Positions 10,799 through 55,996 of a DNA stretch of 64,000 nucleotides are shown piece by piece. The position numbers and the translations under genes were made by a program. The notes beneath the pieces were generated by a model. It was not told the origin of the DNA. It did no database searches and worked only from the letters and a program-made list of their open reading frames with translations. Every line of letters begins with the position of its first letter. Position 1 is the first letter of the stretch. Origin of the DNA: Thalassovita autumnalis (lineage in GTDB: Bacteria; Pseudomonadota; Alphaproteobacteria; Rhodobacterales; Rhodobacteraceae); assembly GCF_001458255.1 (NCBI RefSeq), contig NZ_CYSB01000030.1, positions 124,001 through 188,000 of the forward strand. Direction: 5' to 3'.

Positions 10799-13700
10799 AT
10801 GGCGATGGAAAAAACCTTCAACGCAGCCGAGGCAGAAGCCCGGTTGCTGACTGCCTGGGAACAGGCTGGCTGCTTCAAGGCGGGCGCAAACGCCAAGCCT
10901 GAGGCCTCGACCTACAGCATCATGATCCCGCCCCCGAACGTGACCGGCGTTCTGCACATGGGCCATGCCTTCAACAACACCCTGCAGGACATTCTGATCC
11001 GCTGGAAACGGATGCAGGGCTATGACACGCTCTGGCAGCCGGGCACCGACCACGCGGGCATCGCCACCCAGATGGTTGTGGAACGCACCCTTGCCGAAAC
11101 CCAGCAGCCCTCGCGCCGCGAATTGGGCCGTGAGGCGTTTCTGGAAAAGGTCTGGGAGTGGAAAGAACACTCCGGCGGCACCATCATCAACCAGCTGAAG
11201 CGCTTGGGCGCCTCCTGTGACTATGACCGCACCGCCTTCACCATGTCGGGCGCCCCCGGCGCGCCCGCGGCTGAGGCCGATGGCAACTTCCACGATGCCG
11301 TGATCAAGGTCTTTGTGGAAATGTACAACAAGGGCCTCATTTACCGCGGCAAACGTCTGGTGAACTGGGACCCGCATTTTGAAACCGCGATTTCCGACCT
11401 TGAGGTGGAAAACATCGAGGTGGCGGGCCACATGTGGCACTTCAAATACCCGCTCGCCGGTGGCGCGACCTACACCTATGTGGAAAAGGACGAAGACGGC
11501 AACGTCACCCTTGAGGAAGAGCGCGATTACATCTCCATCGCCACCACCCGTCCGGAAACCATGCTGGGCGACGGCGCCGTTGCCGTGCACCCCTCTGACG
11601 AACGCTATGCGCCAATCGTCGGACAGCTCTGTGAAATCCCTGTTGGTCCCAAGGAACACCGTCGCCTGATTCCGATCATCACCGATGAATATCCCGATAA
11701 GGACTTCGGCTCCGGCGCGGTGAAGATCACCGGCGCCCATGACTTCAACGACTATCAGGTTGCCAAACGCGGTGGCATCCCGATGTACCGCCTGATGGAC
11801 ATGCGCGGTGGCATGCGCGCCGATGGTGCGCCTTACGCCGAGGAGGCCGGCAAAGCACAGGCCCATGCCAAAGGCGCGGCGTTCACCGAAAACGAAGTGG
11901 ACGCGATCAACCTGGTCCCCGATTACCTGCGCGGTCTGGATCGGTTTGAGGCCCGTAAGGCCGTGGTGAAAGAGATCACCGACGAAGGTCTGGCCGTTAT
12001 GCAGACCCTGACCAAAACGGTGAAGGACGAAGACGGCAATGAAACCGAGGTCACCGAAGTGGTGCCCTACGTTGAGAACAAGCCGATCATGCAGCCCTTC
12101 GGCGACCGCTCCAAAGTGGTGATCGAGCCGATGCTGACCGATCAGTGGTTCGTGGATACGGCCAAAATCGTCGGCCCGGCGCTGGACGCGGTGAAAAACG
12201 GCGACGTGAAGATCATCCCCGAAAGTGGTGAGAAGGTTTATTACCATTGGCTGGAAAACATCGAGCCTTGGTGCATCTCGCGCCAGCTGTGGTGGGGCCA
12301 CCAAATTCCGGTTTGGTATGGGCTGAACCTCAGCGCTGAAGACTTCAAAGATGATGAGGGCAACGGTGGCCTCGACATGGTCGAGATTGGTCGGCTGTTG
12401 AACGAAGGTGGCATGTTGCATCGCGGTGATGTCTCGCGTTGCGCTGCTGACTTGGCCGGCGTTAGTGAGTTGTTCCTTGACGATAACGCCAATATCCCTG
12501 CACCACTCAATCACGCCACGATTGTCGAGGTTGCTGATAAGGCCGAGGCGATGCATCGCCTGGCCGAAAGCTTGGCGCAATATGTGATCGATCAGGATCC
12601 CACCAAGTTGGAATATCCTGTCTGGCGCGACCCCGACGTCCTCGATACCTGGTTCTCTTCCGGCCTCTGGCCGATCGGAACCCTGGGCTGGCCCGAAGAT
12701 ACCGAGGAGCTGGCGAAATACTTCCCGACCTCAACCCTGATCACCGGTCAGGACATCCTGTTCTTCTGGGTTGCCCGCATGATGATGATGCAGCTGGCTG
12801 TGGTCGACGATATCCCCTTTGACACCGTCTACCTGCACGGTCTGGTGCGCGATGCCAAAGGCAAGAAGATGTCGAAATCCACCGGCAACGTGGTGGACCC
12901 CCTTGACATCATTGATGAATACGGCGCCGACGCGCTGCGCTTCACCAATGCGGCCATGGCCTCCATCGGGGGTGTGCTGAAACTCGACATGAAACGGATC
13001 GAAGGCTACCGCAACTTTGGCAACAAGCTGTGGCAGTCGCACATCCTGGCGGAAATGAACGGCGTCTTTGAGGTTGACTGTTCCACCCGTCCCGAACCGA
13101 CTCATGCGGTGAACAAATGGATCATCGGCGAAGTGGGCCGCGTGCGGGAAACCGTGGATCGGGCGCTGACCGATTTCCGCTTCAACGACGCCGCGCAGGC
13201 GCTTTATGCCTTCTTCTGGGGCAAGGTCTGCAACTGGTATAATGAGTTCACCAAGCCGCTGTTCCAGAACGAGGACCTGCGTCTGGAAACCCAGCAGACC
13301 ATGGGCTGGGTGCTGGATCAGTCGCTGATGTTGCTGCATCCGATCATGCCCTTCATGACCGAAGAGCTGTGGTCCAACCGTACCCGCGCCAAGATGCTGG
13401 TTCATGCCGACTGGCCGACCTATGGCGGCGAATTGGTGGATGAGGCGGCGGATGCGGAAATCACCTGGGTGATCTCGGTGATCGAAAACATCCGCTCGGC
13501 GCGCGCGCAGATGAACGTGCCCGCTGGCGCCTTCGTGTCGCTGGTGCAGACCGAAGCGGATGCTGCCGCCCGTGAAGCATGGGGTAATAACGAGGCGCTG
13601 ATCAAAAAGATGGCCCGAGTTGAGGCCCTGACCGAGGCGGAGGCGACCCCGAAAGGCTCCGTCGCGATCGCCGCCAAAGGCGCCACCATCGTGATGCCGC

Positions 13701-42196: not shown

Positions 42197-42217
42197 TTGA
42201 CATGAATCATGATTCAT
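42197..42217 (+). promoter_or_regulatory. Perfect 16-bp palindrome over a -35 element of the liv operon
   Basis: ATGAATCATGATTCAT at 42202-42217 is perfectly self-complementary. It begins within a consensus -35 hexamer TTGACA (42197-42202) and sits 41 bases before the livK-like start. The size and symmetry suit a TetR-family operator, and a TetR gene lies in the operon it would control (47857). No good -10 was recognised. Confidence 0.65.
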
Positions 42218-42257: not shown

Positions 42258-43433
42258 ATGCTGCGCGCTGTTGCGTTGACGGCTGTGGGGGCCTTGATGG
42301 CCACTGCGGCAACTGCTGAAATCCGGATTGCCCATGTCTACGGCAAAACCGGCCCGTTTGAGGCCTATGCGGCCCAATCCCACAATGGTCTGATGCTGGG
42401 GCTGGAATATGCCACTGGCGGCACCATGGAGATTGACGGCGAGAAAATCGTTGTGATCGAAAAAGACACCCAGCTGAAACCCGACATCGGCCGTGCCCAG
42501 CTGGAAGAGGCTTACGGCGACGATGATGCTCATATCGCGATCGGGCCAGTGAGCTCGGGCGTGGCACTGGCGATGCTGCCGGTGGCCGAGGAGTATGAGC
42601 GCGTTCTGATTGTGGAGCCTGCGGTGGCCGACTCGATCACCGGTGCCAACTGGAACCCCTATATCTTCCGCACCGGGCGCAACTCGTCCCAGGATGCGAT
42701 TGCCAATGCGGTTGCTCTGGGCGGTGAGGGTGTGACCATCGCCACCCTGGCACAGGACTATGCCTTTGGCCGCGACGGTGTTGCCGCGTTCAAAGAAGCG
42801 CTGGAAGCCACAGGTGCGGAAATCGCGCACGAAGAATACGTGCCGACCGACACCACGGATTTCACCGCAGCGGCTGAACGTATTTTTACCAAGATGGGCG
42901 ACATCGAAGGTGAAAAGAAACTGTTCATCATCTGGGCCGGTGGCGGCAATCCGATGAGCAAAATCAACGCGATGGAGCCTGAGCGTTTCGGTGTTGAGAT
43001 TGCTACCGGCGGCAATATTCTGGCGGCGCTGAAAGCCTATAAAGAGCTGCCCGGCATGGAAGGTGCGACCTACTACTACTATGAAATCCCGCAGAACCCG
43101 GTGAATGAATGGCTGGTGAAAACCCATTTCGAACGCTTTGACAGCCCGCCGGATTTCTTCACCGCAGGCGGTATGGCCTCGGGCATGGCGATTGTTGAAG
43201 CCATCAAAAAGGCCGGTGGCGCTGAAGACACCGACGCGCTGATCGCCGCCATGGAAGGCATGACCTGGGAAACCCCGAAAGGTCAGATGCAATTCCGCGC
43301 CGAAGACCATCAGGCCATGCAGACCATGTACCATTTCCGCACCGAGGTGCATGACGGCAAAGACTACGGTGTGCCGGTTCTGGTTCGTGAAATCGGCATG
43401 GATGAAATGGCCATTCCGGTCCGCAACAAATAA
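42258..43433 (+). CDS. Branched-chain-type ABC transporter binding protein
   Basis: A 391-residue periplasmic binding protein of the LivK/HAAT family (signal peptide cleaved near TATA-E, residue 20). IRIAHVYGKTGPFEAYAAQ, IGPVSSGVALAMLPVAEEY and TLAQDYAFGRDGVAAF mark the fold. ATG 42258 follows a strong GGGAGG site. It begins an eleven-gene run. LivK relatives also bind aromatic acids, dicarboxylates and short fatty acids, so the ligand is not assumed to be an amino acid. Confidence 0.93.
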   Translation: MLRAVALTAVGALMATAATAEIRIAHVYGKTGPFEAYAAQSHNGLMLGLEYATGGTMEIDGEKIVVIEKDTQLKPDIGRAQLEEAYGDDDAHIAIGPVSSGVALAMLPVAEEYERVLIVEPAVADSITGANWNPYIFRTGRNSSQDAIANAVALGGEGVTIATLAQDYAFGRDGVAAFKEALEATGAEIAHEEYVPTDTTDFTAAAERIFTKMGDIEGEKKLFIIWAGGGNPMSKINAMEPERFGVEIATGGNILAALKAYKELPGMEGATYYYYEIPQNPVNEWLVKTHFERFDSPPDFFTAGGMASGMAIVEAIKKAGGAEDTDALIAAMEGMTWETPKGQMQFRAEDHQAMQTMYHFRTEVHDGKDYGVPVLVREIGMDEMAIPVRNK

Positions 43434-43456
43434 GCCGATCCCGGCTTAGCAACCCT

Positions 43457-43490
43457 CCCCGTGGCGCGGCTTTCCCCTTGCGCTACGGGG
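43457..43490 (+). other. Stem-loop between the binding protein gene and livG
   Basis: CCCCGTGGCGC pairs with GCGCTACGGGG (one G-T pair) around a 12-base loop, without a following T run. It probably stabilises or attenuates the transcript, giving more binding protein than ATPases. Confidence 0.6.
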
Positions 43491-43505
43491 ATCGGGACGA
43501 GAGAG

Positions 43506-44270
43506 ATGACCCAGACACTTCTAGAAACACAGGCGCTGACCGTGCGTTTTGGCGGTCACGTGGCCGTTGATGCGGTCTCCTGCAGCTTTCACGCAGGTGA
43601 GTTGACCGCGATCGTGGGCCCCAACGGCGCGGGCAAGACCACCTATTTCAACCTGATTTCCGGCCAGATCCCCGCCAGCGCGGGCACGGTTGAATTGATG
43701 GGTGAGGATATCACGCGCCTTGGCGTCGCAGATCGCTGCCGTCGCGGGTTGGGGCGGGCCTTTCAGCTGACCAACCTGTTTCCCAGCCTTTCGGTTCTGG
43801 AAAACGTGCGTCTGGTGATCCAGTCCCGCCAGCACAAAGGTTTTGGTCTGTTTTCCATGGCGGACAGCCACACAGAACTGACTGTCGCCGCGATGGCCAT
43901 TCTGGAACGGGTGCGGCTGGACCATCAGAAGGATCAGCTGGTCTCGGAACTGTCGCATGGCGATCAGCGCAAGCTGGAAGTGGCGCTGCTGCTGGGCCTC
44001 GACCCGATGGTTTACATGTTCGATGAGCCCACCGCCGGCATGAGCGTGGACGAAGCCCCGGTCATTCTGGACCTGATTGCCGAAATCAAAGCGGATCGGG
44101 AGCGCACCGTGCTGCTGGTCGAACACAAGATGGACGTGATCCGCACCCTGGCGGATCGGATTATCGTTTTGCACAACGGCGCCTTGGCGGCGGATGGCGA
44201 TCCGGAAACGGTGATGGCCTCAGACGTGGTGCAAGAGGCCTATATGGGCAAGGAGCTGGATCATGTCTGA
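43506..44270 (+). CDS. ABC transporter ATPase, LivG type
   Basis: A 254-residue ATPase with Walker A GPNGAGKTT, signature LSHGDQRKLEVALLL and Walker B VYMFDEPTAGMS. The insertion after GRAFQLTNLFPSLSVLENV is typical of LivG. ATG 43506 follows GACGAGAG; the open frame further upstream overlaps the hairpin. Its end overlaps livF by eight bases. Confidence 0.94.
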   Translation: MTQTLLETQALTVRFGGHVAVDAVSCSFHAGELTAIVGPNGAGKTTYFNLISGQIPASAGTVELMGEDITRLGVADRCRRGLGRAFQLTNLFPSLSVLENVRLVIQSRQHKGFGLFSMADSHTELTVAAMAILERVRLDHQKDQLVSELSHGDQRKLEVALLLGLDPMVYMFDEPTAGMSVDEAPVILDLIAEIKADRERTVLLVEHKMDVIRTLADRIIVLHNGALAADGDPETVMASDVVQEAYMGKELDHV

Positions 44271-44985
44271 CCCGATCCTGTCACTCAGCGCGGTCTACAC
44301 AGACATCGCGCAATATCACATTCTGCAAGGCGTGGACCTTGTTGTCCCGCGTGGTCAGGTGACCATGCTTTTGGGGCGTAATGGCGTGGGCAAGACCACC
44401 ACGCTCAAAACCATTATGGGGCAATGGGCGGCCAAATCTGGCCAGATCCAATTTGGTGGGGCTGACATCACCCAAATGGCCACCTCGGCTCGGGCGCGGG
44501 CTGGCATTGGATTTGTGCCCGAAGATATGGGGATCTTCAGCGACCTGACCGTTGCAGAAAACATGGCGCTGGGCTGTATCTCTGGCCCGCTGAAGCCGGA
44601 ACGCAAGGATTGGCTGCTCAGCGCCTTTCCCGCGCTTGCCACCTTCTGGGAGGCGGAAGCAGGCAACCTGTCAGGCGGGCAGAAGCAGATGCTGTCGATT
44701 GCCCGCGCATTGGCCGAAGACCGCAAGCTTTACCTCATTGATGAGCCGACCAAGGGCCTGGCGCCCGCCATCGTCTCCACCATGGCTGCGGCGCTGCGTG
44801 AACTGAAGGCGCAGGGCGCGTCGATCCTACTGGTCGAACAGAACTTCTCGGTCGCGAAGGCCTTGGGCGACAGCGCGGCGGTGATGGATGACGGCCGGGT
44901 GATCTGGACCGGTGAGATGGCAGAACTGGCAACAAGCAAAGACCTGCAGGAACGGCTGATGGGTCTCAGCATGGAGGCACATTAA
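44263..44985 (+). CDS. ABC transporter ATPase, LivF type
   Basis: A 240-residue ATPase with Walker A GRNGVGKTT, signature LSGGQKQMLSIARAL and Walker B LYLIDEPTKGLAP. The segment GFVPEDMGIFSDLTVAENM is typical of LivF. It forms the heterodimeric ATPase with the LivG-type protein and is one base before the first permease. Confidence 0.94.
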   Translation: MSDPILSLSAVYTDIAQYHILQGVDLVVPRGQVTMLLGRNGVGKTTTLKTIMGQWAAKSGQIQFGGADITQMATSARARAGIGFVPEDMGIFSDLTVAENMALGCISGPLKPERKDWLLSAFPALATFWEAEAGNLSGGQKQMLSIARALAEDRKLYLIDEPTKGLAPAIVSTMAAALRELKAQGASILLVEQNFSVAKALGDSAAVMDDGRVIWTGEMAELATSKDLQERLMGLSMEAH

Positions 44986-44986
44986 G

Positions 44987-46018
44987 ATGACTGCTGCTCC
45001 TGATCATAAACCAACTTTCGCAACCCTCTCTTTGGGCGAGCGGTTGGACAAGGCGATGCCGGTTCTGCTGATCCCGATCCTTGTGGTGTTGGGGTTCCTT
45101 GCCATTGGCGCGCCTTCGTCCTGGCTGACGCTGACGGTGTCCGGTCTGGCGATGGGCATGATGATCTTCATCATGGCCTCCGGCCTGACGCTGGTCTTTG
45201 GCCTGATGGACGTTATCAACTTTGGCCACGGCGCTTTCGTCTCGGTTGGGGCCTTTGTTGGCATCTCGGTTCTGATCGCCCTGGGGGATTGGACCGGTGC
45301 AACGTCACTGCTGCTGAACATGTCCGCAGTCTTCCTAGCCGTGGTTGCGGCCATGGCGGTGACTGGCGTGATGGGCTGGGGGTTTGAGCGGGTGATCGTG
45401 AAACCCGTCTATGGCGCGCACCTGAAACAGATCCTTGTGACCGTGGGCGGGCTGATCGTGATTGAACAGCTGATCCATGTGGTCTGGGGCCCGGATGAGA
45501 TTTTTATTAACCGCCCCGAAACCCTGAAAGGTGCCATCACTTTTGCCGGTGCCGCGATGGAGAAATATCGCCTGCTGGCCGTGGCCATCGGTCTGATCCT
45601 GTTTGTCGCCATGCGCATGGTGCTGCGCCGTACCAAGATCGGTCTGATCGTGCGTGCCGGCGTGGAAAACGGCCCGATGGTGGAGGCGCTGGGCTACCGG
45701 CTGCGGCTGGTCTTCGTCGGGGTCTTCATCGCTGGATCTGCTCTTGCGGGTCTGGGCGGCGTCATGTGGGGCCTTTACCAGGAGGTGATCACCGCTGGCA
45801 TGGGCGAAAAGATGATGGTGCTGGTTTTCATCGTGGCCATTATCGGTGGGCTGGGATCGGTGGAGGGCGCCTTCATCGGTGCGTTGCTGGTCGGTCTGAC
45901 ACAGAACTACGTGGCCTTTCTGGAACCGAAACTGGCGCTGGTGTCCAACATCGCGCTGATGACCGCAATTCTGATGTGGCGCCCGCAGGGGATGCTGCCT
46001 GTTGTGAAAGCGAAATAA
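44987..46018 (+). CDS. ABC transporter permease, LivH type
   Basis: A 343-residue membrane protein with about eight helices, longer at the N terminus than average. LVFGLMDVINFGHGAFVSVG is the typical first block, RTKIGLIVRAGVENGPMVEALGY the coupling loop, and GGLGSVEGAFIGALLVGL a later helix. It pairs with the LivM-type permease encoded next. Confidence 0.93.
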   Translation: MTAAPDHKPTFATLSLGERLDKAMPVLLIPILVVLGFLAIGAPSSWLTLTVSGLAMGMMIFIMASGLTLVFGLMDVINFGHGAFVSVGAFVGISVLIALGDWTGATSLLLNMSAVFLAVVAAMAVTGVMGWGFERVIVKPVYGAHLKQILVTVGGLIVIEQLIHVVWGPDEIFINRPETLKGAITFAGAAMEKYRLLAVAIGLILFVAMRMVLRRTKIGLIVRAGVENGPMVEALGYRLRLVFVGVFIAGSALAGLGGVMWGLYQEVITAGMGEKMMVLVFIVAIIGGLGSVEGAFIGALLVGLTQNYVAFLEPKLALVSNIALMTAILMWRPQGMLPVVKAK

Positions 46019-46019
46019 G

Positions 46020-47078
46020 ATGATCGTCAAACTTCTGTCCGGCGACCAGCCACGTTCGCCTATCCTGACCGCCATTTTGCTGCTGATCCTTGTCTGCCTT
46101 GCAGGTGCCCCGTTCATCTTTGACGGTGTGCGCCCCTTGGACACGGCGGCGCGGATCTGCATTTTCATCGTTCTGGTGGCCAGCTATGATCTGTTGCTGG
46201 GCTATGGCGGCATCGTCAGCTTTGCCCATACCATGTTCTTTGGCCTTGGCGCCTACGGTGTGGCGCTGGCCTCCACCCACATGGGGCGCGGCTTTGATGC
46301 CCTGCTGGTGGGCTCTATTGCCGGGGCGCTGGCGGCCGTCGTGCTTGCCCTGCTGATCGGCCTCTTTTCCTTGCGGGTGCGGGCGATCTTCTTCGCGATG
46401 ATCACCCTCGCAGTGGCCTCCGCCGTTGCGGTGCTTGTGTCGCAATTCTCCGGCCTTACCGGGGGGGAGGATGGGCTGACCTATAAGATCCCGCGGGTTC
46501 TGACCTCTGCCAATCGCATGGGCGAGTTTCTGGGCACCAAGATCAGCGGCAAGATTCTGAATTACTATCTGATCTTCTTTGCCTCGCTGGCCCTGTTCCT
46601 GATCCTGTTGCGTATCGTCAATTCACCCTTTGGTCGGGTGCTGCAGGCGATCCGCGAAAATGACTTCCGCGCTGAGGCGATCGGGTATCGTGTGGTCTGG
46701 TATCGCACTGTGGCCACATGTCTGTCGGCAGCCACGGCCGCGCTGGCGGGCAGCCTGTTTGCGATCTGGCTGCGTTATGTCGGCCCGGACACCACGCTGA
46801 GCTTTGAGATCATGTTGGACATCCTGTTGATGGTGGTGATCGGCGGCATGGGCACAATGTATGGCGCGGTGATTGGGGCGGTGCTGTTCATCATGGCGCA
46901 GACCTATCTGCAGAACCTGATGGGCGTGGCTTCAGAGGCGACCCATGGGCTGCCGCTGCTGCCTGATCTGTTGGAGCCGGACCGCTGGCTGATGTGGCTA
47001 GGCATCCTGTTCATCCTGTCGGTCTATTTCTTCCCCACTGGCATCGTTGGTCGCCTGCGTGAGCGGAGCACTTCATGA
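46020..47078 (+). CDS. ABC transporter permease, LivM type
   Basis: A 352-residue membrane protein with about nine helices. LLLGYGGIVSFAHTMFFGLGA, the coupling loop GRVLQAIRENDFRAEAIGY and MVVIGGMGTMYGAVIGA are LivM blocks. Its last four bases overlap the start of the alpha/beta hydrolase gene, tying transport to the catabolic genes in one transcript. Confidence 0.93.
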   Translation: MIVKLLSGDQPRSPILTAILLLILVCLAGAPFIFDGVRPLDTAARICIFIVLVASYDLLLGYGGIVSFAHTMFFGLGAYGVALASTHMGRGFDALLVGSIAGALAAVVLALLIGLFSLRVRAIFFAMITLAVASAVAVLVSQFSGLTGGEDGLTYKIPRVLTSANRMGEFLGTKISGKILNYYLIFFASLALFLILLRIVNSPFGRVLQAIRENDFRAEAIGYRVVWYRTVATCLSAATAALAGSLFAIWLRYVGPDTTLSFEIMLDILLMVVIGGMGTMYGAVIGAVLFIMAQTYLQNLMGVASEATHGLPLLPDLLEPDRWLMWLGILFILSVYFFPTGIVGRLRERSTS

Positions 47079-47860
47079 GCCTGCCTGTCCTTTTCCTGCA
47101 CGGCTGGGCGATGCGCGGGGACCTTTTTGATGAGGTGGCGCGCCGACTTGGGCCGGGCTTTGACTGTCACGCGCCGGATTTGCCGGGGCATGGCAGCCGC
47201 GCCGATCAGCCCGGCGGGCTGGAGGCCTGCGTGGATCTGGCCTGTGACTGGATCACGCGGTTGGATCGCCCGCTGGTTATTGGCTGGTCTATGGGGGCAG
47301 GTGTGGCCTGGCGCAGCATTGCGCGCAGGGGCACGGCAGGGATCCGCGGCTTGGTCACCATAGATATGAGCCCCCGCATGTTGCCCGCCGATGATTGGGA
47401 TATGGGGATGATTGCCAGCGGGGCAGAGGCGATCCTTGCCACCTCGGATAAGATCATCCCGGAATGGCCCCGCATGAGCGGCAGCATCGCCCGCACCATG
47501 TACGCCCGCACCTCTGATCCGCAACCCAGCCGTCAAGCCATTGAGGGGATGTTGCTGGCGCAGGATCCGCGTCACCTGCGCCCTGTCTGGGACGATCTGG
47601 TGGCGATGGATGTGCGTGATACGATTGCTGGCATCGATGTGCCCTATTTGGTGTGCACCGGCGCGGACAGTCGTCTGTATCGTGAAGATGTGGCGCAGTG
47701 GATCGCTGCTGAAGCATCACAGGCACAGGTGGCGCGGTTTGCCCAGTCAGGCCATTCGCCCCATCTGGAAGAGCCCGAGGCCTTTTGTGATGCCATTTGC
47801 CGCTTTGTTGCGGCACAAGGGTGGGTAAGCCACATCCACGAGCAAGAAGACCAGACATGA
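47075..47860 (+). CDS. Alpha/beta hydrolase of the transport-catabolic operon
   Basis: A 261-residue alpha/beta hydrolase resembling BioH/MhpC types. LFLHGWAMRGDLF is the oxyanion segment, GWSMGAGVAW the nucleophile elbow, TGADSRLY the acid segment and SGHSPHLEEPEAF holds the His, so the catalytic triad is complete. A role in ester or thioester hydrolysis of the imported compound fits the neighbours. It overlaps both neighbours by four bases. Confidence 0.87.
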   Translation: MSLPVLFLHGWAMRGDLFDEVARRLGPGFDCHAPDLPGHGSRADQPGGLEACVDLACDWITRLDRPLVIGWSMGAGVAWRSIARRGTAGIRGLVTIDMSPRMLPADDWDMGMIASGAEAILATSDKIIPEWPRMSGSIARTMYARTSDPQPSRQAIEGMLLAQDPRHLRPVWDDLVAMDVRDTIAGIDVPYLVCTGADSRLYREDVAQWIAAEASQAQVARFAQSGHSPHLEEPEAFCDAICRFVAAQGWVSHIHEQEDQT

Positions 47861-48453
47861 CCATTCAAACCACCGCCAAACCCAAAACCAAACGCGGGCT
47901 GGAACGCCGGGCCAAGATCCTTGCCGCGGCAGAACAGGTGATTGGTGAAAAAGGGTTCGTGGCCGCCTCAATCGCGGATATCACCCGGGCGGCCGATACC
48001 GCTTCTGGCACGTTCTACATCTATTTCTCGGGCAAAGACGAAGTGTTCCGTGAACTGGTGCAGGACATGGGGCACGCCACACGTTCGCAAGCTGCCGAGC
48101 GGGTCGCAGGGGCCACCAACCGGTTGGAGGCCGAACGTGCCGGCCTTGCCGCCTACCTGACCGTAGTGCGCGACCGGCCCATGCAATACCGCATTGTCGA
48201 GGAGGCGCGTTTCGTCGATCCCGAGGCCTACCGCGAATACTACACCGAGTTTGGCAAAGCCTATAGTGAGCAACTGCGTCAGGCAGCGGAGAAGGGCGAG
48301 ATTTCAGCCGGGGATGCTGAGGTGCGGGCCTGGGCGCTGATGGGGCTGGCCAAAACCCTTGGGGAGCGTTTCGTGCTGTGGGAAGACAACGTCGATATCG
48401 ATCGCGTGGTTGAAGAGGCGCATAGCTTCATTTGCAATGGGTTGGCCCCATGA
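47857..48453 (+). CDS. TetR-family repressor of the operon
   Basis: A 198-residue TetR protein: helix-turn-helix at about 15-60 (RRAKILAAAEQVIGEKGF, SIADITRAADTASGTFYIYF) and an alpha-helical ligand domain. ATG 47857 overlaps the hydrolase stop (ATGA). Its place inside the operon, with a 16-bp palindrome at the operon promoter, suggests autoregulation by an operon substrate or its CoA ester; this is inference. Confidence 0.92.
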   Translation: MTIQTTAKPKTKRGLERRAKILAAAEQVIGEKGFVAASIADITRAADTASGTFYIYFSGKDEVFRELVQDMGHATRSQAAERVAGATNRLEAERAGLAAYLTVVRDRPMQYRIVEEARFVDPEAYREYYTEFGKAYSEQLRQAAEKGEISAGDAEVRAWALMGLAKTLGERFVLWEDNVDIDRVVEEAHSFICNGLAP

Positions 48454-49223
48454 CCGAGCGGCTGACCTGTGAACTGACCGAGCTGCCCAGCGGCGAATTG
48501 TGTTTTCACATCACCCTTCACGCGCTACGCGCCAACTCCCTTGTGCCCGCGTTTCTGACAGATCTGCACAATGCTTTTGACCAGTTGGAACACTCCGGCG
48601 CGTCCAAGGGGCTGATCACTTCGGGGCGCAACTATTCCTCAGGCGGGGATGTGGCGGGCTTCTACGATGCCGCGCGTCAGGGTCGGGCGGAGGCATATGC
48701 CCGTGATGTGGTGCCCCAGCTGCAGGATCTGGTCTTGCGGATGATCGAGGCCCCGGTGCTGATCGCAAGCGCTGTGCGCGGTGCTGCGACCGGTGGCTCG
48801 GCCGGTTTGGTCTTTGCCTCTGATCTGGTGACTGCGGCACCAGACGCCTTTGTGCAGCCCTATTATGGCATCATGGGCTATGCGCCGGATGGCGGCTGGA
48901 CGGCCACCCTGCCTGAATTGATCGGGCTGGGTCCGGCGCGGGGTTGGCTGATCGCCAATAGGCGTCAAAAGGCGCCAGACCTGCTGCAAATGGGCCTTGC
49001 ACAGGTTGTTTCGGACGAGCCTGAGGCGCAGGCGCTGCATCTGCTGGACAGTGTGGAAACCGGCACGGCCCTGGCCAGTAAACGCCTGTTGTGGACGGTG
49101 GATCGGGTGGCGCGTGTGCGTGCGGCTCTGAGCGCGGAGACCGAAGCCTTTGTACACTTGATCGGGCGGCCAGAGGTGCTGGCGCGCATGAATGATTTCC
49201 TGAACCCAACTGGGACAGAATGA
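48450..49223 (+). CDS. Crotonase-fold acyl-CoA enzyme, PaaG-like
   Basis: A 257-residue crotonase. SGRNYSSGGDVAGFY and VRGAATGGSAGLVFASDL form the oxyanion hole. Where hydratases carry the two catalytic Glu residues, this protein reads YYGIMGYAPDGGW and LGPARGW, so both Glu are replaced and only the Asp of the PDGG turn remains. That pattern suits an isomerase or another crotonase reaction more than hydration. It is coupled to both neighbours by ATGA overlaps. Confidence 0.85.
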   Translation: MTERLTCELTELPSGELCFHITLHALRANSLVPAFLTDLHNAFDQLEHSGASKGLITSGRNYSSGGDVAGFYDAARQGRAEAYARDVVPQLQDLVLRMIEAPVLIASAVRGAATGGSAGLVFASDLVTAAPDAFVQPYYGIMGYAPDGGWTATLPELIGLGPARGWLIANRRQKAPDLLQMGLAQVVSDEPEAQALHLLDSVETGTALASKRLLWTVDRVARVRAALSAETEAFVHLIGRPEVLARMNDFLNPTGTE

Positions 49224-50713
49224 TGTTTGACCTGATACCTGACATGGCCGCAAAACGGGCCGAGTTGACGCCAGATGCACTGGCCTTTGAGGACACGACA
49301 ACGGGCCTCAGCTGGAGTTTTGCCAAGGTCAATGCAGCCGCAGATGCGGTGGCCGCTGGCCTGGCCGCGCGCGGGCTGGTTGAAGGCGACCGGTTGGCGA
49401 TCCTGTGCCAGAACCGGGCTGAATTTTTCGTAGCACTCTTTGCCTGCCAAAAGACTGGCCTGATCCTGTGCCCGTTGAACTGGCGTCTGCCCGCACCTGA
49501 ACTGACCGAGGTGGTGGCTGATGTCGGCATCTCGCTGTTTCTGGCCGATGCTGCCTTCATGGATGTGGCGCAGGCTGTGGCCTCGGCTACAGAAACTCCG
49601 CTCCTGTCCATCGAACAGGATCTGAACGGCTGGATCACTGCCGGTGGGCCGGCCCTCAGCGCCGCAATCCCGGCGGAGCGGCCTTGGTATCTGCTGTTCA
49701 CCTCCGGCACCACGGGCCTGCCAAAGGCGGTGATCCAGACGGCGCGGATGGCTTGGGCCAATGCGGTCAACATCGGTCAGGCGATCGATATTGCCTCAAC
49801 CGACCGGGCAGCGTGTTTCCTGCCGCTGTTTCACACCGCTGGTATCAACCTTTACACCTTGCCGATCTTCCTGACCGGGGGGCTTTCGACCATTCTGGCT
49901 AAGTTTGAACCCGATGAAGTGCAGGCGTTGCTGGCCTCGGGACGGATCAACCAGTTCTTCGGTGTACCCGCGATCTATCAGGCGCTTTCACTGATGGAGA
50001 CTGTGGATGATATCGATTGGCACTTGATCAAATGTGGTTGTGGTGGCGCGCCGCTGCCCGAACCACTGATCCACTTCTTCGCGGAAAAAGGCGCCTATGT
50101 GCTGAACGGCATGGGCATGACGGAAAGTGGCCCGACCGTCTTCCTGATGGATCCGGGACATGCGGCGGACAAGATCGGATCGGTCGGCAAACCCCAAAGC
50201 CTGGCCGAGGTGCGACTGGCCGGTGTCGCCGACGGCGTTGAAGGGGCAGGGGAGTTGCAGCTGCGCGGTCCCGGTATCACCCCCGGCTATTTCCAGAACC
50301 CCGTGGCAACCAATAAGACCTTTACCGGAGATGGCTGGCTGGCCACCGGCGATGTCGCCCGGCGGGATGCGGATGGCTATTACTACATCGTCGATCGCAT
50401 CAAAGACATGTTCATCTCGGGTGGTGAAAACGTCTACCCGGCGGAGGTGGAGCGGGTGCTGAACAGCCACCCGGCCATTTTGGAAACCGCAGTGATCGGC
50501 GTACCCGATGCCAAATGGGGTGAAGTCGGCGCGGCCTTTGTGCTGCTGCGCCCCGGCGCCACGCTGGAGGCTGAGACCTTGCGCCCTTGGAGCCGTGAAC
50601 GCCTGGCTGGATATAAGGTGCCGGCCCATGTGCGCATCGTCACGGACTTCCCGCGCACAGCGGCAGGCAAGGTCTGCAAACCCGATCTGAGACAGGAGTT
50701 TGAGGATGCTTGA
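49220..50713 (+). CDS. Acyl-CoA ligase (AMP-forming)
   Basis: A 497-residue acyl-adenylate-forming enzyme. The P-loop block is LLFTSGTTGLPKAVIQT, then NGMGMTESGPTVF (A5), TGDVARRDADGYYYIVDRIK (A7), FISGGENVYPAEVE (A8) and the catalytic Lys in RTAAGKVCKPDLR. It would activate the imported acid to its CoA ester. The acid could be an aryl, cyclic or medium-chain carboxylate; the pocket residues do not decide it by eye. Confidence 0.93.
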   Translation: MMFDLIPDMAAKRAELTPDALAFEDTTTGLSWSFAKVNAAADAVAAGLAARGLVEGDRLAILCQNRAEFFVALFACQKTGLILCPLNWRLPAPELTEVVADVGISLFLADAAFMDVAQAVASATETPLLSIEQDLNGWITAGGPALSAAIPAERPWYLLFTSGTTGLPKAVIQTARMAWANAVNIGQAIDIASTDRAACFLPLFHTAGINLYTLPIFLTGGLSTILAKFEPDEVQALLASGRINQFFGVPAIYQALSLMETVDDIDWHLIKCGCGGAPLPEPLIHFFAEKGAYVLNGMGMTESGPTVFLMDPGHAADKIGSVGKPQSLAEVRLAGVADGVEGAGELQLRGPGITPGYFQNPVATNKTFTGDGWLATGDVARRDADGYYYIVDRIKDMFISGGENVYPAEVERVLNSHPAILETAVIGVPDAKWGEVGAAFVLLRPGATLEAETLRPWSRERLAGYKVPAHVRIVTDFPRTAAGKVCKPDLRQEFEDA

Positions 50714-51062
50714 TCTGCAAGAGGTCTGGGTGCCGACACAGGCGGAGTTTGATGCTTTTGCCGCCGTATCCGGTGATGACAACGCAATCCATGTCGACCC
50801 GGAGTTTTGCGCTGCAACCACCTTTGGGCGCACCGTCAGTCATGGCATGCTGATCTACAGCAAACTCTGGGGTATGTTGAAACGTTATGATGCAAGCCTC
50901 AGGCAGGTCAGCCAATCGATGATGTTTCCAAATCCGGCCTTCACTGGGGAGGCACTGGATCTGCGGATCGTGGAAACCAGTCCCGGCCAGTTGACCATGC
51001 GGGTGACCCGCGTGGCCGATGGGGCGGAATGTCTGGTCGGGGAGGCCGAAGTCACATGTTGA
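50706..51062 (+). CDS. MaoC-type enoyl-CoA hydratase, catalytic half
   Basis: A 118-residue single hotdog domain with the hydratase 2 motif intact: SGDDNAIHVDPEFCA, with the catalytic Asp and His, then FGRTVSHGMLIYS. It starts at ATG 50706 behind AGGAG, inside the end of the ligase gene. Its stop overlaps the start of a second hotdog gene that lacks this motif, so a heteromeric enzyme is likely. Confidence 0.88.
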   Translation: MLDLQEVWVPTQAEFDAFAAVSGDDNAIHVDPEFCAATTFGRTVSHGMLIYSKLWGMLKRYDASLRQVSQSMMFPNPAFTGEALDLRIVETSPGQLTMRVTRVADGAECLVGEAEVTC

Positions 51063-51424
51063 GCCTTGGACAGTTTGCCGAAGTCACCCGCAGCTACAGC
51101 GCCGCCGACCTGCGGGCCTACCAACGCCTCAGCGGGGCGGTGGGCGACAGCGTGCCTGAGCCCCTGATCGCGGGTCTGTTTTCCTACCTGTTGGGCGTCC
51201 AACTGCCGGGGTCCGGCACCAACTACCTGAAGCAGGAACTGGCGTTCAAAGCGCCCGCACCTCTGGCGACACCGCTAACGGCGCGGGTGGAGATCACCCG
51301 CCTCAGGGCCGACAAACATCTGGTTGATCTTTGGGCCAGCTGTACGGCGCCGGATGGCACAGTGATCTGTGAAGGACGCAGTTTGGTAAAGGCGAAGGAC
51401 GTGCAGGGCGCCTTTGCCGCTTAG
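51056..51424 (+). CDS. MaoC-like hotdog protein lacking the catalytic motif
   Basis: A 122-residue hotdog protein. It shows the fold (YSAADLRAYQRLSG, PEPLIAGLFSYLLGVQLPG, SGTNYLKQELAFKAP), but the Asp-x5-His hydratase segment is absent: the helix follows directly after VGDSVPEPL. Small non-catalytic MaoC partners are known in actinobacterial ChsH1-ChsH2 hydratases of steroid side-chain breakdown. It is the last gene of the operon and meets the P450-like gene tail to tail. Confidence 0.78.
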   Translation: MLSLGQFAEVTRSYSAADLRAYQRLSGAVGDSVPEPLIAGLFSYLLGVQLPGSGTNYLKQELAFKAPAPLATPLTARVEITRLRADKHLVDLWASCTAPDGTVICEGRSLVKAKDVQGAFAA

Positions 51425-51430
51425 CGGTTC

Positions 51431-52705
51431 CTAACCTTCCGGCTGTGCAGGCGCCTGCGTCAGGTCGGCGGCCAGTTGGGTCAGCAGGGCTGAGATCATG
51501 TTGAACGACAACAACGCGCTGGCGCAGCGATGCGTGCCATCGTGGAAGGTCAAAGAGTCTGAGGATGCGCTGCGTGATTGCAGCTGATCCGGCTGCGAAA
51601 ACACCTTGGGATCGCGGTTTGCTGCGGCAAGGGACAGGAAAACTGCTGTGTCCGCTTCGACCTCAACACCGCAGAGGGTAATCGATTTGGCAGCGGCACG
51701 TTTCAGCATGGGCTGAGGTGGAGACAGGCGTAAAACCTCCTCGATCACTGTGCTGCTGTCATTTGGCAGTTGCTGCGCCAGCGATGGGGTTGCGCCCAGC
51801 GTGGCCACCAGATGTTTGAGCGCCGCCGCAGTGAACTGAATCCCGGTCACAAAAACACCCAGCGCACAATCGGCCGCCTGTTCCGGTGTCAGCTTGCGAT
51901 GTTGCAGGGCGGCCAGCAGGCCTTGCTGTTCGGGCATCGTGGCTGCGGCCCAATCTTGCAGATCAGCATGGAACATCACCACGCTCTCAACGGTCGCTTT
52001 ATCGCCGGTCTGCTCGGTGATGGTCAGCCCCTCCAGCATCGCTTGGTATCGCGGTGCCTCGCTGGCGGGCAGTCCGGCAAATTGACACAGCGCTGTAAAG
52101 ACAAAGCAATCAATCAGCGCGGAGTAATCCAATGAAGACTGCGGTGTGCTCTGCTGCCGAATGACGTCTGAGGCAATCTGCAGCAGCAACACGCCTTGTT
52201 CGTGCAGGCAGTGCAGATGGGCCTCTTGCAGGGCGGTCTGTTCAATGGCGGCTTTGGTATTGGTCAGGCGGTCGTAGAGGTTGGCGAGTTCTGGCGACTG
52301 GTCAACGCCCTGTTGCCGCGGGGGCGTGCAAATGAGGTCTGGATGTTCCAAAGCCTCTTTCACCTCACGATGGCCGGTCAACAGCAGGGCGTTGCTGCCG
52401 CAGCGCAAAATGGGCGTGTCCTGACGCAGACGCATTAGTTGCGGCACGCTCATTGCGGTGATCGCCTCTTCGGTGAGATGGGTCACTGGCAGGGCGGCAG
52501 ATGGATTGGGCTGGAGGTTGTGCAATGGCGTCACCACCCGATGCCCGGCACCGTGGGGGACGGCGTGTGTGCGTTTGGCAAAGCACAGCTGCTGCGCATC
52601 AGGTAAACCTTTGTCATCGTTGAAATACGTTTTGACCAAATTCAGCCCCCTGAAACGACGGATAAACGTCAGCCGGGAACCCACGGAAAAGTTGAATGCG
52701 CGCAA
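51431..52705 (-). CDS. Divergent cytochrome P450-like protein
   Basis: A 424-residue protein with most P450 landmarks. The K-helix ExxR is in EEVLRLSPPQPMLKR, and the heme loop is TFHDGTHRCASALL, with the Cys ligand kept but the usual FGxG and CxG glycines changed. The I helix (VFVTGIQFTAAAL) keeps Gly and Thr. The N-terminal 60 residues have no clear match. It ends seven bases from the operon on the other strand. Substrate and electron donor are unknown. Confidence 0.75.
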   Translation of the reverse strand: MRAFNFSVGSRLTFIRRFRGLNLVKTYFNDDKGLPDAQQLCFAKRTHAVPHGAGHRVVTPLHNLQPNPSAALPVTHLTEEAITAMSVPQLMRLRQDTPILRCGSNALLLTGHREVKEALEHPDLICTPPRQQGVDQSPELANLYDRLTNTKAAIEQTALQEAHLHCLHEQGVLLLQIASDVIRQQSTPQSSLDYSALIDCFVFTALCQFAGLPASEAPRYQAMLEGLTITEQTGDKATVESVVMFHADLQDWAAATMPEQQGLLAALQHRKLTPEQAADCALGVFVTGIQFTAAALKHLVATLGATPSLAQQLPNDSSTVIEEVLRLSPPQPMLKRAAAKSITLCGVEVEADTAVFLSLAAANRDPKVFSQPDQLQSRSASSDSLTFHDGTHRCASALLSFNMISALLTQLAADLTQAPAQPEG

Positions 52706-53469: not shown

Positions 53470-54630
53470 TCAGTTCCCCAATCGATGCCCCAGTTTTTCC
53501 AACATGGACAGGCAGTGCTGAAGCTGGTCCAACGCCAGGTATTCATCTGCCTTATGCGCCTGCTCGATGGAGCCGGGGCCGCATACAATCACATCTGTTC
53601 CCAATGCTTGGAAGATACCCGCCTCAGTGCCAAACGCAACCAGATCTGCGCCATTGGCCCCTGTCAGCTCGGCGACGATCCGCTTCGCTTCATTGTCATC
53701 CGTGGGGGTTAGTCCGGCCACTTCGGCGATCACCTCCAGATCAATTCGGGCGTCTGGATGTACGGCGCGCATCGCGGGCTGCAGGGTGTCATCGCAATAG
53801 CGTTGCAGTTCTGATTTCACAAAATCCGCGTCGCTGGTCTGCACCGGGCGCATTTCCCAATCGATGCGGGCGGTGGAGGGGATCACGTTATTGGCCACTC
53901 CACCGTTCAGCGCGCCGACATTGATGGTGGTCCAGGGTGGGTCAAATCGGCTGGTTTCTGGCGCCATCGCGCGCAGCCGATCCTTCAGCTCCAGGATTTT
54001 GGCCACATAGCGGCTGGCGTATTCCACTGCGTTGACGCCCAGATCTGGCAGGGAACCATGGCCGGCAAGCCCATGAAAATGGGTGCTGTATTCGTAGCAG
54101 CCTTTGTGCCCTTCAATGATCCGCATTTCTGTTGGCTCACCGATGATGGCGATGCCGGGGGTGAGGCCGCGGTCCGCCAGAACCTTTCCCAGATGCTGCG
54201 CCCCAAAACAGCCGATTTCCTCATCATAGGTGAAGGCAAAATGCACCGGCCTGTCGGCCACCTGCCGCGCAAACAGCGGGGCCATGGCCAAAGTGGCGGC
54301 GATGAAACCCTTCATATCGCAGGTGCCGCGCCCGTAAAGCCGGCCGTCCCGTTCGACCATTTCGAACGGATCGGTCTGCCATTGCTGATCGCTGACCGGC
54401 ACAACGTCGGAATGACCTGACAGCAGGATGCCACCGTCCCGTTCCGGCCCCAATGTGGCAAAGAGGTTGGCCTTGGTCCCACAGGGGGACGGGATATGGT
54501 CAATCTTGGCGCCGACCTCTTCCAACAGACCGGCCGCAAAGGCGATCAGATCAAGGTTCCCGTCCGCCGAAACCGAAGGGAAGGCGATCAGATCGGCCAG
54601 TATCTCCTTGGTGCGCGCCAGCGTTGTCAT
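53470..54630 (-). CDS. M20 family deacetylase, ArgE-like
   Basis: A 386-residue zinc deacetylase of the acetylornithine deacetylase/succinyl-diaminopimelate desuccinylase family. LLSGHSDVVPV (metal His and Asp), GRGTCDMKG (bridging Asp), TYDEEIGCFGA (Glu pair), IIGEPTEM and the terminal HKADEYL are all present. Its position after the ectoine hydrolase suggests that it deacetylates N-acetyl-diaminobutyrate, a job done by DoeB elsewhere. It overlaps both the hydrolase gene (4 bases) and nearly the regulator gene. Confidence 0.88.
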   Translation of the reverse strand: MTTLARTKEILADLIAFPSVSADGNLDLIAFAAGLLEEVGAKIDHIPSPCGTKANLFATLGPERDGGILLSGHSDVVPVSDQQWQTDPFEMVERDGRLYGRGTCDMKGFIAATLAMAPLFARQVADRPVHFAFTYDEEIGCFGAQHLGKVLADRGLTPGIAIIGEPTEMRIIEGHKGCYEYSTHFHGLAGHGSLPDLGVNAVEYASRYVAKILELKDRLRAMAPETSRFDPPWTTINVGALNGGVANNVIPSTARIDWEMRPVQTSDADFVKSELQRYCDDTLQPAMRAVHPDARIDLEVIAEVAGLTPTDDNEAKRIVAELTGANGADLVAFGTEAGIFQALGTDVIVCGPGSIEQAHKADEYLALDQLQHCLSMLEKLGHRLGN

Positions 54631-55811
54631 GGTTTGACAAACAGTTTGCGGTCAACAGAACACAGCGGTTCCGCAGCGCCGTCTTCGGTGATCAGAATGG
54701 TCTCGGTTGTCTCCAGCCCCCAGCTGTCCATCCAGAGTGCTGGCATGAAGTGGAAGGTCATCCCCGGTTCCAGAACAGTAGTGTCTTCGGTCCGGATGGA
54801 GGCCGTGCGCTCACCCCAATCGGGCGGGTAGCTGAGGCCGATCGGATATCCCATCCGGCCCGAGCGTTCGATCCCATGTTTCGCCAATACATCCATAAAG
54901 GCATTGGCGATATCGCAGGTGCGGTTGCCGGTCTTGGCGGCCTCCAACCCGGCGGCAATGCCTTCAAGCTGCGCTGCCTCTGCCGCCAGCATCTCAGCCG
55001 GTGGGCTGCCAAGAAAGATCGTACGGCTCAGCGGGGCGTGATAGCGGCGATAACAGCCCGAAAGCTCAAAGAAGGTGGCCTCCCCCGATTTCATCGGCGC
55101 CCCGTTCCAGGTCAGGTGGGCGGCGGTGGCATCCAGACCCGAGGGCGTCAGGGGCACGATGGCGGGGTAATCGCCCCAGATGTCGTCCACCCCTTTGATG
55201 CCGGCATGGTAAATCTCAGCCACCAGATCGTTTTTGCGCAAGCCCGGTTCGGCCCGTTCCAGTGCGGTATGGATGACCTTATCGGTGATCCGCGCCGCCT
55301 TTCGGATGAAGCTGATCTCCTCACCGGATTTCACCAGACGCTGCCAGTTCACCAAGGCGGTGGCGTCACAGAAGGTTGCGCCAGGCAGTTCCTCGACCAG
55401 AACCGCATGAGCTTTGGCCGAGTAATAGTAATTCTCCATCTCGACGCCGATGCGTTTGCCCTCAGCGCCGAGAGCCTTGATATGACCGGCCAGATCCTGC
55501 ATCGGATGGCGTTCGGTGGATTGCACATATTCATCGCCGTAGCCGTGCACATGGCTTGGTGCCATCCAGCAGGTGCGATTGGCGCCCACGCTGTCCATAT
55601 AGCGGCCCCACCAGATCGGATCGCCTTCTAGCCCCAGCAACACGCCCTGATGCACGTAGAAAGACCAGCCATCATAGCCCGTCAGCCAAGCTTGGTTGGA
55701 GGGATCGGTGACAAAGATCAGATCCAGACCTGCCGCAACCATCGCGGCGCGGGTCTTGGCAATGCGTCGGTCATATTCGGTGCGGCTGAAAGGCAGATCC
55801 TTGGGTGTCAT
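54627..55811 (-). CDS. doeA: Ectoine hydrolase
   Basis: A 394-residue M24 (creatinase-type) protein. WLTGYDGWSFYVHQGVLLG, PIWWGRYMDSVGANRT, YYSAKAHAVLVEELPG, GYPIGLSYPPDWGERT and the ending FVKP follow DoeA/EutD, which opens the ectoine ring to N-acetyl-diaminobutyrate. ATG 55811 agrees with the DoeA N terminus; an in-frame upstream extension of up to 38 residues has no support. It starts the minus-strand half of the cluster. Confidence 0.9.
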   Translation of the reverse strand: MTPKDLPFSRTEYDRRIAKTRAAMVAAGLDLIFVTDPSNQAWLTGYDGWSFYVHQGVLLGLEGDPIWWGRYMDSVGANRTCWMAPSHVHGYGDEYVQSTERHPMQDLAGHIKALGAEGKRIGVEMENYYYSAKAHAVLVEELPGATFCDATALVNWQRLVKSGEEISFIRKAARITDKVIHTALERAEPGLRKNDLVAEIYHAGIKGVDDIWGDYPAIVPLTPSGLDATAAHLTWNGAPMKSGEATFFELSGCYRRYHAPLSRTIFLGSPPAEMLAAEAAQLEGIAAGLEAAKTGNRTCDIANAFMDVLAKHGIERSGRMGYPIGLSYPPDWGERTASIRTEDTTVLEPGMTFHFMPALWMDSWGLETTETILITEDGAAEPLCSVDRKLFVKP

Positions 55812-55996
55812 GCAGGGCTCGCTTGTTGTGTACATATTGGGTGGTGCTGCCGAGTGAAAATCAGATATTTCGAGATTCGGCGTCGATTTGCTGCTGATAA
55901 TCGGTTGGTGTGGAGCTTGCGTCAATCATCTTGTATACAAGTGGCGGTGCGGTGCCGAAAAACCACCGGCGCCCGCAGGCCAATTTGGACCCGAAA
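55812..55996. promoter_or_regulatory. Divergent control region of the ectoine cluster
   Basis: The 185-bp gap between doeA and the AsnC gene holds the perfect palindrome CTTGTATACAAG (55930-55941) and a related TTGTGTACATA (55826-55836) nearer doeA. Such TTGTnTACAA sites are bound by many GntR/FCD regulators, and a GntR gene is in the doeA transcript. Confidence 0.6.

Follow-up and report, generated by a model that had tools for sequence, protein, structure and literature searches.

In the genome of Thalassovita autumnalis, eleven + strand genes at 42258-51424 of a 64,000-nucleotide stretch of contig NZ_CYSB01000030.1 (hereafter the window) form one tight operon, in which a complete Liv-type ATP-binding cassette (ABC) transporter is joined to a TetR-family regulator and a set of coenzyme A (CoA) enzymes. 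On balance, we favour the view that this operon is a catabolic cassette, inherited as a unit and equipped with its own TetR switch, and that it serves the use of a bulky acid, unsaturated and either cyclic or aryl. A comparison of loci established which genes make up the set, how they are conserved and laid out, and that the copies have a palindrome in common.

Organization of the operon

All eleven reading frames are present in the window. The first gene (42258-43433) encodes a periplasmic substrate-binding protein of the Liv type that matches the Peripla_BP_6 profile. It is followed by a LivG-type ATPase (43506-44270, where the ATG at 43506 is preferred although the longest open reading frame starts from a GTG at 43461), a LivF-type ATPase (44263-44985, by family match), and two BPD_transp_2 permeases of the LivH (44987-46018) and LivM (46020-47078) types, which completes the Liv-type (HAAT) set. 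Next come a BioH-like alpha/beta hydrolase (47075-47860; Abhydrolase_6), the TetR-family regulator (47857-48453; TetR_N), a crotonase-fold protein with a PaaG-type active site, presumed to be an acyl-CoA double-bond isomerase (48450-49223), and an AMP-forming acyl-CoA ligase (49220-50713, by family match). The last two genes encode hotdog proteins: a MaoC-type protein with Asp26-His31, the presumed catalytic subunit of an (R)-enoyl-CoA hydratase (50706-51062), and a second one without the catalytic Asp-His segment, its presumed non-catalytic partner (51056-51424). The likely ATG starts, read from the translations, are 43506 for LivG, 47857 for TetR, 48450 for the crotonase, 50706 for MaoC and 51056 for the second hotdog protein; with these, every junction from LivG on is an overlap of 4-8 bases or a gap of one base. 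An earlier note on this DNA had listed the same eleven genes and families and had described them as overlapping or one base apart from livG on. Frames and family matches agree with that list, and the spacing holds with the likely ATG starts; the operator described below had been overlooked.

The eleven genes recur and are inherited together

All eleven genes were found in 38 of 93 loci (L011-L103, amounting to 92 places since L014 and L020 are the same plasmid locus). The named loci were the best 80 of at least 571 encoded relatives in a scan with the binding protein, and the plasmid loci come from 5 records opened among 176 matching plasmid records. Because 38 further loci hold the whole set, the association of these genes goes beyond chance. 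Nine of the remaining loci carry part of the CoA genes and 46 carry the transporter, whole or partial, with no CoA genes in the DNA covered (24 labelled HPC, 10 ABH and 12 'none'); these class counts extend over the DNA around each locus, so that a more distant cassette would be missed. For the HPC label a single match at 1e-15 was enough: 20 of the 24 loci have HpaR, and in L048, L075, L096 and L100 the label depends on a distant match to a dehydrogenase or hydrolase.

Three layouts occur among the 38 cassettes, whose median span is 9.2 kb. In 22 the arrangement is convergent, an arm with the transporter and hydrolase facing an arm with TetR, crotonase, ligase and hotdog genes; 15 are colinear as in the window, and one has the catabolic arm first. 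No pair of the 38 loci shares an identical 700-base stretch of the ligase gene, and the best matches contain no stops other than at their edges. Median identity to the window is 76-84% for the transporter proteins, 62-66% for the ligase, TetR and hotdog proteins, 48% for the crotonase and 43% for the hydrolase; in the transporter tree the nearest transporters are those of L017 (same genus), L016 (same family) and L025 (Thalassobius sp. Cn5-15). The two arms diverge in step, with a distance correlation of 0.94 over 39 rows that none of 2000 permutations reached. This correlation shows joint inheritance, not function.

The cassette spans several alphaproteobacterial families and is both chromosomal and plasmid-borne. 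Carriers were found in Leisingera, Tritonibacter, Ruegeria, Celeribacter, Hoeflea, Roseibium/Labrenzia, Stappia and Amorphus, and plasmid carriers in Mameliella, Nitratireductor, Hoeflea and Roseinatronobacter; within the host's family, the crotonase gene is present in 9 of 198 genomes, the source genome included. At the thresholds used, what surrounds the cassettes has little in common: one loose cluster of low mean score recurs in 9 loci and four clusters recur in 3 loci each, in a one-sided comparison that for most named loci reached about 10 kb on the binding-protein side and about 2 kb beyond the other end. Over the same flanks of the 38 loci, no dehydrogenase, thiolase or other redox enzyme recurs in or beside the cassette. 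Since the flanks share so little, the set appears to be a self-contained cassette.

These comparisons bear on several statements of the earlier note. It had treated the transporter and CoA genes as one unit and had proposed looking for the same gene order elsewhere; the recurrence of the complete set, colinear in 15 loci, the shared operator and the parallel divergence of the arms all support this. Transporter and catabolic genes are thus no rare neighbours, yet many close Liv transporters (the 24 HPC, 10 ABH and 12 'none' loci) stand without CoA genes nearby. The absence of an acyl-CoA dehydrogenase or thiolase, which it had also noted, is true of the window cassette, and its description of the pathway as partial or unusual fits the lack of any recurring redox enzyme.

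Some loci depart from these layouts. In L119 (4909-15345) the two arms are divergent and each ends in a different type of alpha/beta hydrolase, so that two hydrolases accompany the cassette. On a plasmid of Qingshengfaniella alkalisoli (L014, 10432-12903) only TetR and crotonase are kept in the stretch covered, with a perfect operator copy at 12888; this locus is apparently a decayed cassette. Seven Roseibium/Labrenzia/Stappia loci (L063, L070, L073, L074, L076, L077 and L078) have the transporter and hydrolase and no CoA genes within the flanks covered. A one-mismatch operator lies 206-208 bases upstream of the binding-protein match in L074, L076 and L078, and the other arm of these loci may be elsewhere or lost.

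A putative palindromic operator at the start of both arms

Upstream of the binding-protein gene lies the stretch TTGACATGAATCATGATTCAT, which contains a presumed -35 box of the operon promoter, TTGACA (42197-42202, + strand), and the conserved palindrome ATGAATCATGATTCAT (42202-42217), the last base of the box being the first base of the palindrome. We presume that TetR binds this palindrome as its operator, whose consensus is ATGAAT-N4-ATTCAT. The box was not listed by a consensus promoter scan. The pattern TTGACA[TC]GA[AT] precedes the gene for the binding protein in 28 of the 38 homologous cassettes. The window's 64 kb contain a single site with no more than one mismatch, that at 42202-42217, against an expected 0.10. 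Across the homologous cassettes, an operator with at most one mismatch precedes the binding-protein gene in 26 of 38 (33 with two mismatches allowed) and the TetR gene in 15 of the 22 convergent ones (19 with two allowed). What is new here is a palindromic operator that touches the presumed -35 box and recurs before TetR where the arms are split.

Elsewhere in the cassette loci such sites are sparse: in 769 kb, 4 differ from the consensus at one position at most and a further 8 at two. A second listing, which took in the stretches upstream of TetR in all layouts, left three sites outside in the 38 loci, two of them at distances of 202 and 217 bases from the matches to the binding protein and TetR. 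The third is a second perfect copy of the operator in L011 (20082-20097, Hoeflea sp. IMCC20628). Another Liv-type transporter operon adjoins the cassette there, with this site lying between the two, and that transporter may have been drawn into the regulon. Among the HPC-labelled loci the operator precedes the binding-protein gene in 1 of 24, and some cassette-free transporters retain it.

We then considered 22 whole carrier genomes, chosen mostly from carriers in which a site had already been seen, with an extended 20-base pattern and two mismatches allowed. There were 32 sites, 30 of them at the cassette: 22, one per genome, were read and stand where the gene for the binding protein or for TetR begins, and 8 were placed by position, 9-10 kb from a read site on the same contig, as expected of the second arm. 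The remaining two, one in G439 (C28) and one in G099 (C4), carry two mismatches each and lie away from the cassette. A reversed control pattern gave 0 sites in the 22 genomes. Because 30 of the 32 extended sites sit at the cassette, TetR would appear to control the cassette only; the local regulator probably governs both arms and little or nothing else.

Predicted activities of the CoA enzymes

The active site of the crotonase resembles that of an isomerase. Residue D153, invariant in 32 of 32 sequences (alignment A7, which omits the plasmid loci as well as L028, L035 and L069, where stops fall at the match edge), is aligned with the Asp of E. coli PaaG, whereas Gly and Tyr stand in place of the two Glu of the hydratase PaaF; these Asp and Glu are the catalytic residues of the two enzymes. 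By profile the protein is also nearer to PaaG (4.6e-21) than to PaaF (7.9e-15). These features suggest a PaaG-type double-bond isomerase rather than a hydratase.

Alignments A8-A10 were built from subsets of 17, 22 and 22 carriers. The first hotdog protein scores above the cut-off for MaoC_dehydratas, and its Asp26 and His31, invariant in 23 of 23, are aligned with those of the (R)-specific enoyl-CoA hydratase 1iq6. The second has no Pfam match at 1e-3. It does match 1iq6, at 2.7e-14, being aligned to residues 56-132 and weakly to 5-34, with Ala in place of Asp and with no counterpart of residues 35-55, which hold the catalytic His; the Asp-His segment is likewise missing in 7 of 7 second-hotdog rows aligned with their partners. 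A sequence match to HadB is marginal (2.3e-4). Two-subunit MaoC hydratases, such as HadAB/HadBC and ChsH1-ChsH2, act on bulky acyl-CoAs, and by analogy with them the cassette pair suggests a single hydratase made of a catalytic and an emptied subunit. The earlier note had proposed uptake, CoA activation and double-bond chemistry; the last of these is refined here, in that the crotonase looks like an isomerase and not a hydratase and that the hotdog pair would be one hydratase. In plasmid records the second hotdog protein, of about 120 residues, is annotated as 'phosphate acetyltransferase' (L011 13628-13984, L012 3505-3879, L013 13582-13941). The name was perhaps taken from the hotdog part of the fused family PRK08190; the window protein has no PRK08190-type domain match.

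In the hydrolase, Ser72, Asp97 and His227 are kept in 14 of 14 aligned rows and a Ser occupies the usual acid position, which suggests a triad of S72, D97 and H227 with its acid after strand 6. The protein scores 90.7 bits against the curated BioH model, below its cut-off of 206.95. Within its superfamily the ligase is unremarkable: its best solved matches are 8weu and 8wev, at 328 bits, the latter named feruloyl-CoA synthetase, and it falls below the curated cut-off in all 25 families shown.

Likely cargo of the transporter

The binding protein (model predicted local distance difference test score, pLDDT, of 88) has as its closest fold RPA4397 of Rhodopseudomonas palustris (3n0x; 65% identity over 370 residues, Z 55.5). 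Ranks 4-8 are the aromatic-acid binders 4eyg, 4ey3, 4f06, 4evq and 4evs (20-27% identity, Z about 41), whose titles name vanillate or 4-hydroxybenzoate, that of 4f06 ending before the ligand. A search of the accessible literature found no ligand for RPA4397 and no mention of it by name, and a term search of a paper on R. pomeroyi transporters (PMC10130141) gave nothing relevant.

In E. coli LivJ and LivK, the Glu of a GPEG stretch holds the ammonium of the bound amino acid. This stretch is deleted in the window protein and in four aligned relatives, so that an alpha-amino acid is an unlikely cargo; against the amino acid model the protein scores 48.8 bits, with a cut-off of 477. From its sequence, then, the transporter looks Liv-like without belonging to the amino acid importers by class. 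A tree of the transporters places 22 of the 24 HPC-labelled rows in a single clade (support 100) that lies among the cassette-linked transporters; in one HPC-labelled locus, L087, HpaR, HpaD, HpaE and HpaH pass their curated cut-offs and HpaI fails. By analogy, this kinship points to aromatic or similar cyclic acids.

Within these homoprotocatechuate-type clusters, a pyridoxal phosphate (PLP)-dependent decarboxylase lies near HpaR and the related Liv transporter in L041, L045, L050, L051, L054-L056, L058, L059, L083, L085, L087, L091 and L094, and some of the clusters also contain genes for a sulfatase and for a glycerate kinase. Such clusters might convert an aromatic amino acid to homoprotocatechuate. 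We also considered transferring a cargo from L114, a locus guessed to be Bradyrhizobium-like, whose neighbours are a sigma-54 activator, an esterase, a benzoylformate-decarboxylase-like enzyme and a flavohemoprotein. It was too unlike the cassette, and this was rejected.

A proposed route and what weighs against it

Taken together, these predictions would fit the following route. The binding protein would capture a carboxylic acid that has no alpha-amino group, the Liv permease would import it, and the AMP-forming ligase would convert it to its acyl-CoA. The crotonase, with the PaaG-type Asp and no hydratase Glu, would shift a double bond into conjugation, and the hotdog pair, as one hydratase, would yield the 3-hydroxyacyl-CoA; the active-site segment lost from the partner subunit would give space for a bulky acyl group. 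The remaining steps would fall to the cell's housekeeping dehydrogenase and thiolase, so that the side chain or ring of the acid would enter beta-oxidation after isomerization and hydration. The hydrolase might free the acid from an imported ester or release CoA from a dead end, and TetR would leave its operator once an acyl-CoA product binds. A bulky, already unsaturated cyclic or aryl substrate would explain why the cassette carries no acyl-CoA dehydrogenase. Such an acid is the likeliest substrate; straight polyunsaturated acids are possible.

Several observations pull the other way. On the regulatory side, 5 of the 38 cassettes have no operator with up to two mismatches before the binding-protein gene and 3 of the 22 convergent ones have none before TetR in the tested stretch, while a site with at most one mismatch also precedes the binding-protein gene in 4 of 10 ABH and 1 of 12 'none' loci. 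The motif and its thresholds were set after sites had been seen, and the count over the 22 genomes speaks to the exclusiveness of the site and not to its generality, the set omitting carriers with a weak or no visible operator, such as L018, L023, L040, L062, L069, L089 and L095. As for the enzymes, the crotonase scores 51.8 bits against the curated PaaG model, whose cut-off is 345.15, and is not filed as PaaG; its fold is equally near DfsA/RpfF, general hydratases and isomerases (Z 26.8-30.5, with no clear winner), and its resemblance to PaaG does not settle its reaction. The pairing of the hotdog proteins, the binding of TetR and the order of the enzymes are all inferred from sequence. As to the cargo, ranks 2 and 3 of the binding-protein folds (4zpj and 4maa) have titles that mention no aromatic ligand, and 4maa scores level with the aromatic-acid binders. 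Furthermore, the carriers G076 and G436 have no PaaA, PcaG, HmgA, HpaD, intradiol dioxygenase, LigB, BoxB or gentisate dioxygenase (the last four searched in 8, 4, 4 and 9 genomes, respectively). Because an aromatic substrate would be expected to come with a ring-opening enzyme in every carrier, these genomes weigh against a plain aromatic diet; they are nearly one lineage and count as one case, not two.

A bolder version of the proposal would have the cassette encode a complete and so far undescribed pathway without redox steps, for an unsaturated cyclic or aryl acid that is abundant in the sea, and spread through the alphaproteobacteria as an autonomous regulon of eleven genes with its own operator. 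Uptake, CoA activation, isomerization and two-subunit MaoC hydration would then be followed by a non-oxidative cleavage of a carbon-carbon or ester bond, and neither dehydrogenase nor thiolase would take part. We regard this version as doubtful.

Other explanations

The cassette might instead encode a complete, redox-free side-chain pathway for a cinnamate-like acid that would need neither dehydrogenase nor thiolase, and in which the ligase and hydration by the MaoC pair would be followed by carbon-carbon cleavage, either by the crotonase in a retro-aldol reaction or by the hydrolase; in one variant, the hydrolase might first split an imported hydroxycinnamate ester. No redox gene recurs with the cassette, just two further operator sites, with two mismatches each, were found in the 22 genomes, a feruloyl-CoA synthetase is among the nearest solved relatives of the ligase, and the binding protein has aromatic-acid binders among its nearest folds. 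However, ferulate-type hydratase/lyases use a Glu that the crotonase lacks, and its Asp suggests isomerization. The ligase match is a mere best hit, and G076 and G436 are without any of the ring-opening enzymes tested. We consider this pathway improbable.

Isomerase and hydratase are the classic auxiliary set for unsaturated fatty acids, and a straight polyunsaturated or conjugated fatty acid would give the crotonase the role of a dienoyl-CoA/enoyl-CoA isomerase and the MaoC pair that of an (R)-hydratase feeding beta-oxidation. Enoyl-CoA isomerases are indeed among the fold matches of the crotonase, and 4n03, titled a fatty acid binding protein, shares the fold of the binding protein at Z 31.5. 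In a study of R. palustris, seventeen binding proteins shifted with fatty or dicarboxylic acids (PMC3223731). Aromatic-acid binders rank closer to the window protein, however, and a related transporter clade sits in homoprotocatechuate-type clusters, which makes a fatty acid an unlikely substrate.

A salvage or detoxification unit, limited to the uptake, CoA tagging and inactivation of an exogenous signal or inhibitory acid, would account for the cassette having its own regulator, for the lack of further pathway genes in the DNA covered, and for its plasmid copies and its patchy spread within the host's family. High-affinity import of a compound that is to be inactivated would nonetheless be odd, and patchiness fits a niche carbon source equally well; we hold this to be quite unlikely.

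The resemblance of the crotonase to PaaG, and the MaoC-like hydratase step that PaaZ also has, could make the cassette an accessory arm of phenylacetate degradation, acting with the isomerase and MaoC hydratase on ring epoxides produced by PaaABCE elsewhere. PaaA is about equally common in carriers (18 of 28) and in other family members (20 of 33; counted without L032), ten carriers having none. The idea is thereby largely refuted and very unlikely, and a phenylacetate link as a requirement was rejected. The other ring pathways explain the cassette no better: PcaG (protocatechuate) is found in 19 of 28 carriers against 21 of 33 others, HmgA (homogentisate) in 24 of 28 against 26 of 33, and HpaD (homoprotocatechuate) above its cut-off in 8 of 28 carriers, the only genomes searched for it. 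Finally, the locus could be no more than a common branched-chain amino acid transporter that happens to lie next to acyl-CoA genes of no related function. This would agree with automatic annotation, which gives the permeases that name, but it is scarcely credible given eleven genes united through rearrangement, a common operator, arms that diverge in step, the deleted GPEG stretch and a score far below the amino acid model's cut-off.

Genes next to the cassette

A cytochrome P450-like gene on the - strand (51431-52705) is convergent with the cassette and ends 7 bases from it. As a pathway partner it was rejected, since it does not recur beside the 38 homologous cassettes over the flanks covered. 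Further on, also on the - strand (53470-55925), lie mutually overlapping genes for an acetylornithine-deacetylase-like protein and an ectoine hydrolase DoeA-like protein, the latter at 593.8 bits against a cut-off of 613. These are the only flanking genes of the window also found beside homologous cassettes, the former in L095 and the latter in L038, with frames antisense to both.

Significance and comparison with known systems

Liv-type transporters are labelled 'branched-chain amino acid' by default, though this family probably carries quite a different compound. In a portable eleven-gene unit with an apparently single dedicated operator, the inducer of TetR, the ligand of the binding protein and the substrate of the ligase must agree; consequently, a screen of modest size could put a name to both compound and pathway in dozens of genomes at once. 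As the cassette has no redox enzyme, it is also a good case for how CoA modules join housekeeping beta-oxidation or dispense with it.

Among known systems, the closest include the homoprotocatechuate (hpa)-type clusters of Phaeobacter, Ruegeria, Shimia and relatives, whose Liv proteins are about 62-81% identical to those of the window. Within the flanks covered, these clusters have no such ligase, crotonase, hotdog pair or TetR, and 1 of 24 has the operator; they carry instead HpaR (20 of 24), the PLP decarboxylase (14 of 24) and HpaD (8 of 24). For the binding protein, the nearest counterpart by fold is RPA4397 of R. palustris, known from structures 3n0x and 3nnd. Like HadAB/HadBC and ChsH1-ChsH2, the cassette would have one hotdog subunit that keeps Asp-His and a neighbour that lost it, although the match to HadB is marginal; the pairing in the cassette is deduced from the two sequences. 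With the paa pathway, the cassette shares CoA ligation, a PaaG-like crotonase with the aligned Asp and a MaoC-type hydratase. Unlike paa, it has none of PaaABCE, PaaZ, PaaH or PaaJ among its eleven genes, and genomic PaaA is not associated with it.

In R. palustris, according to PMC3223731, the pimFABCDE operon with its acyl-CoA ligase lies beside an ABC transporter with fatty- or dicarboxylic-acid binding proteins, and such transporters adjoin CoA-dependent acid pathways (hba/bad and pim). As described there, pim encodes all the beta-oxidation enzymes, whereas neither a dehydrogenase nor a thiolase is among the eleven genes of the window cassette. The earlier note had recognized no described pathway with this set, and our literature search, which left most subscription papers outside its reach, brought no contrary paper. 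A transporter beside CoA genes is thus of a kind already known, and the eleven-gene set differs from the pim, paa and hpa sets. What is new is a transporter-plus-CoA cassette that combines an isomerase-like crotonase, a putative split hydratase and its own operator with no redox step.

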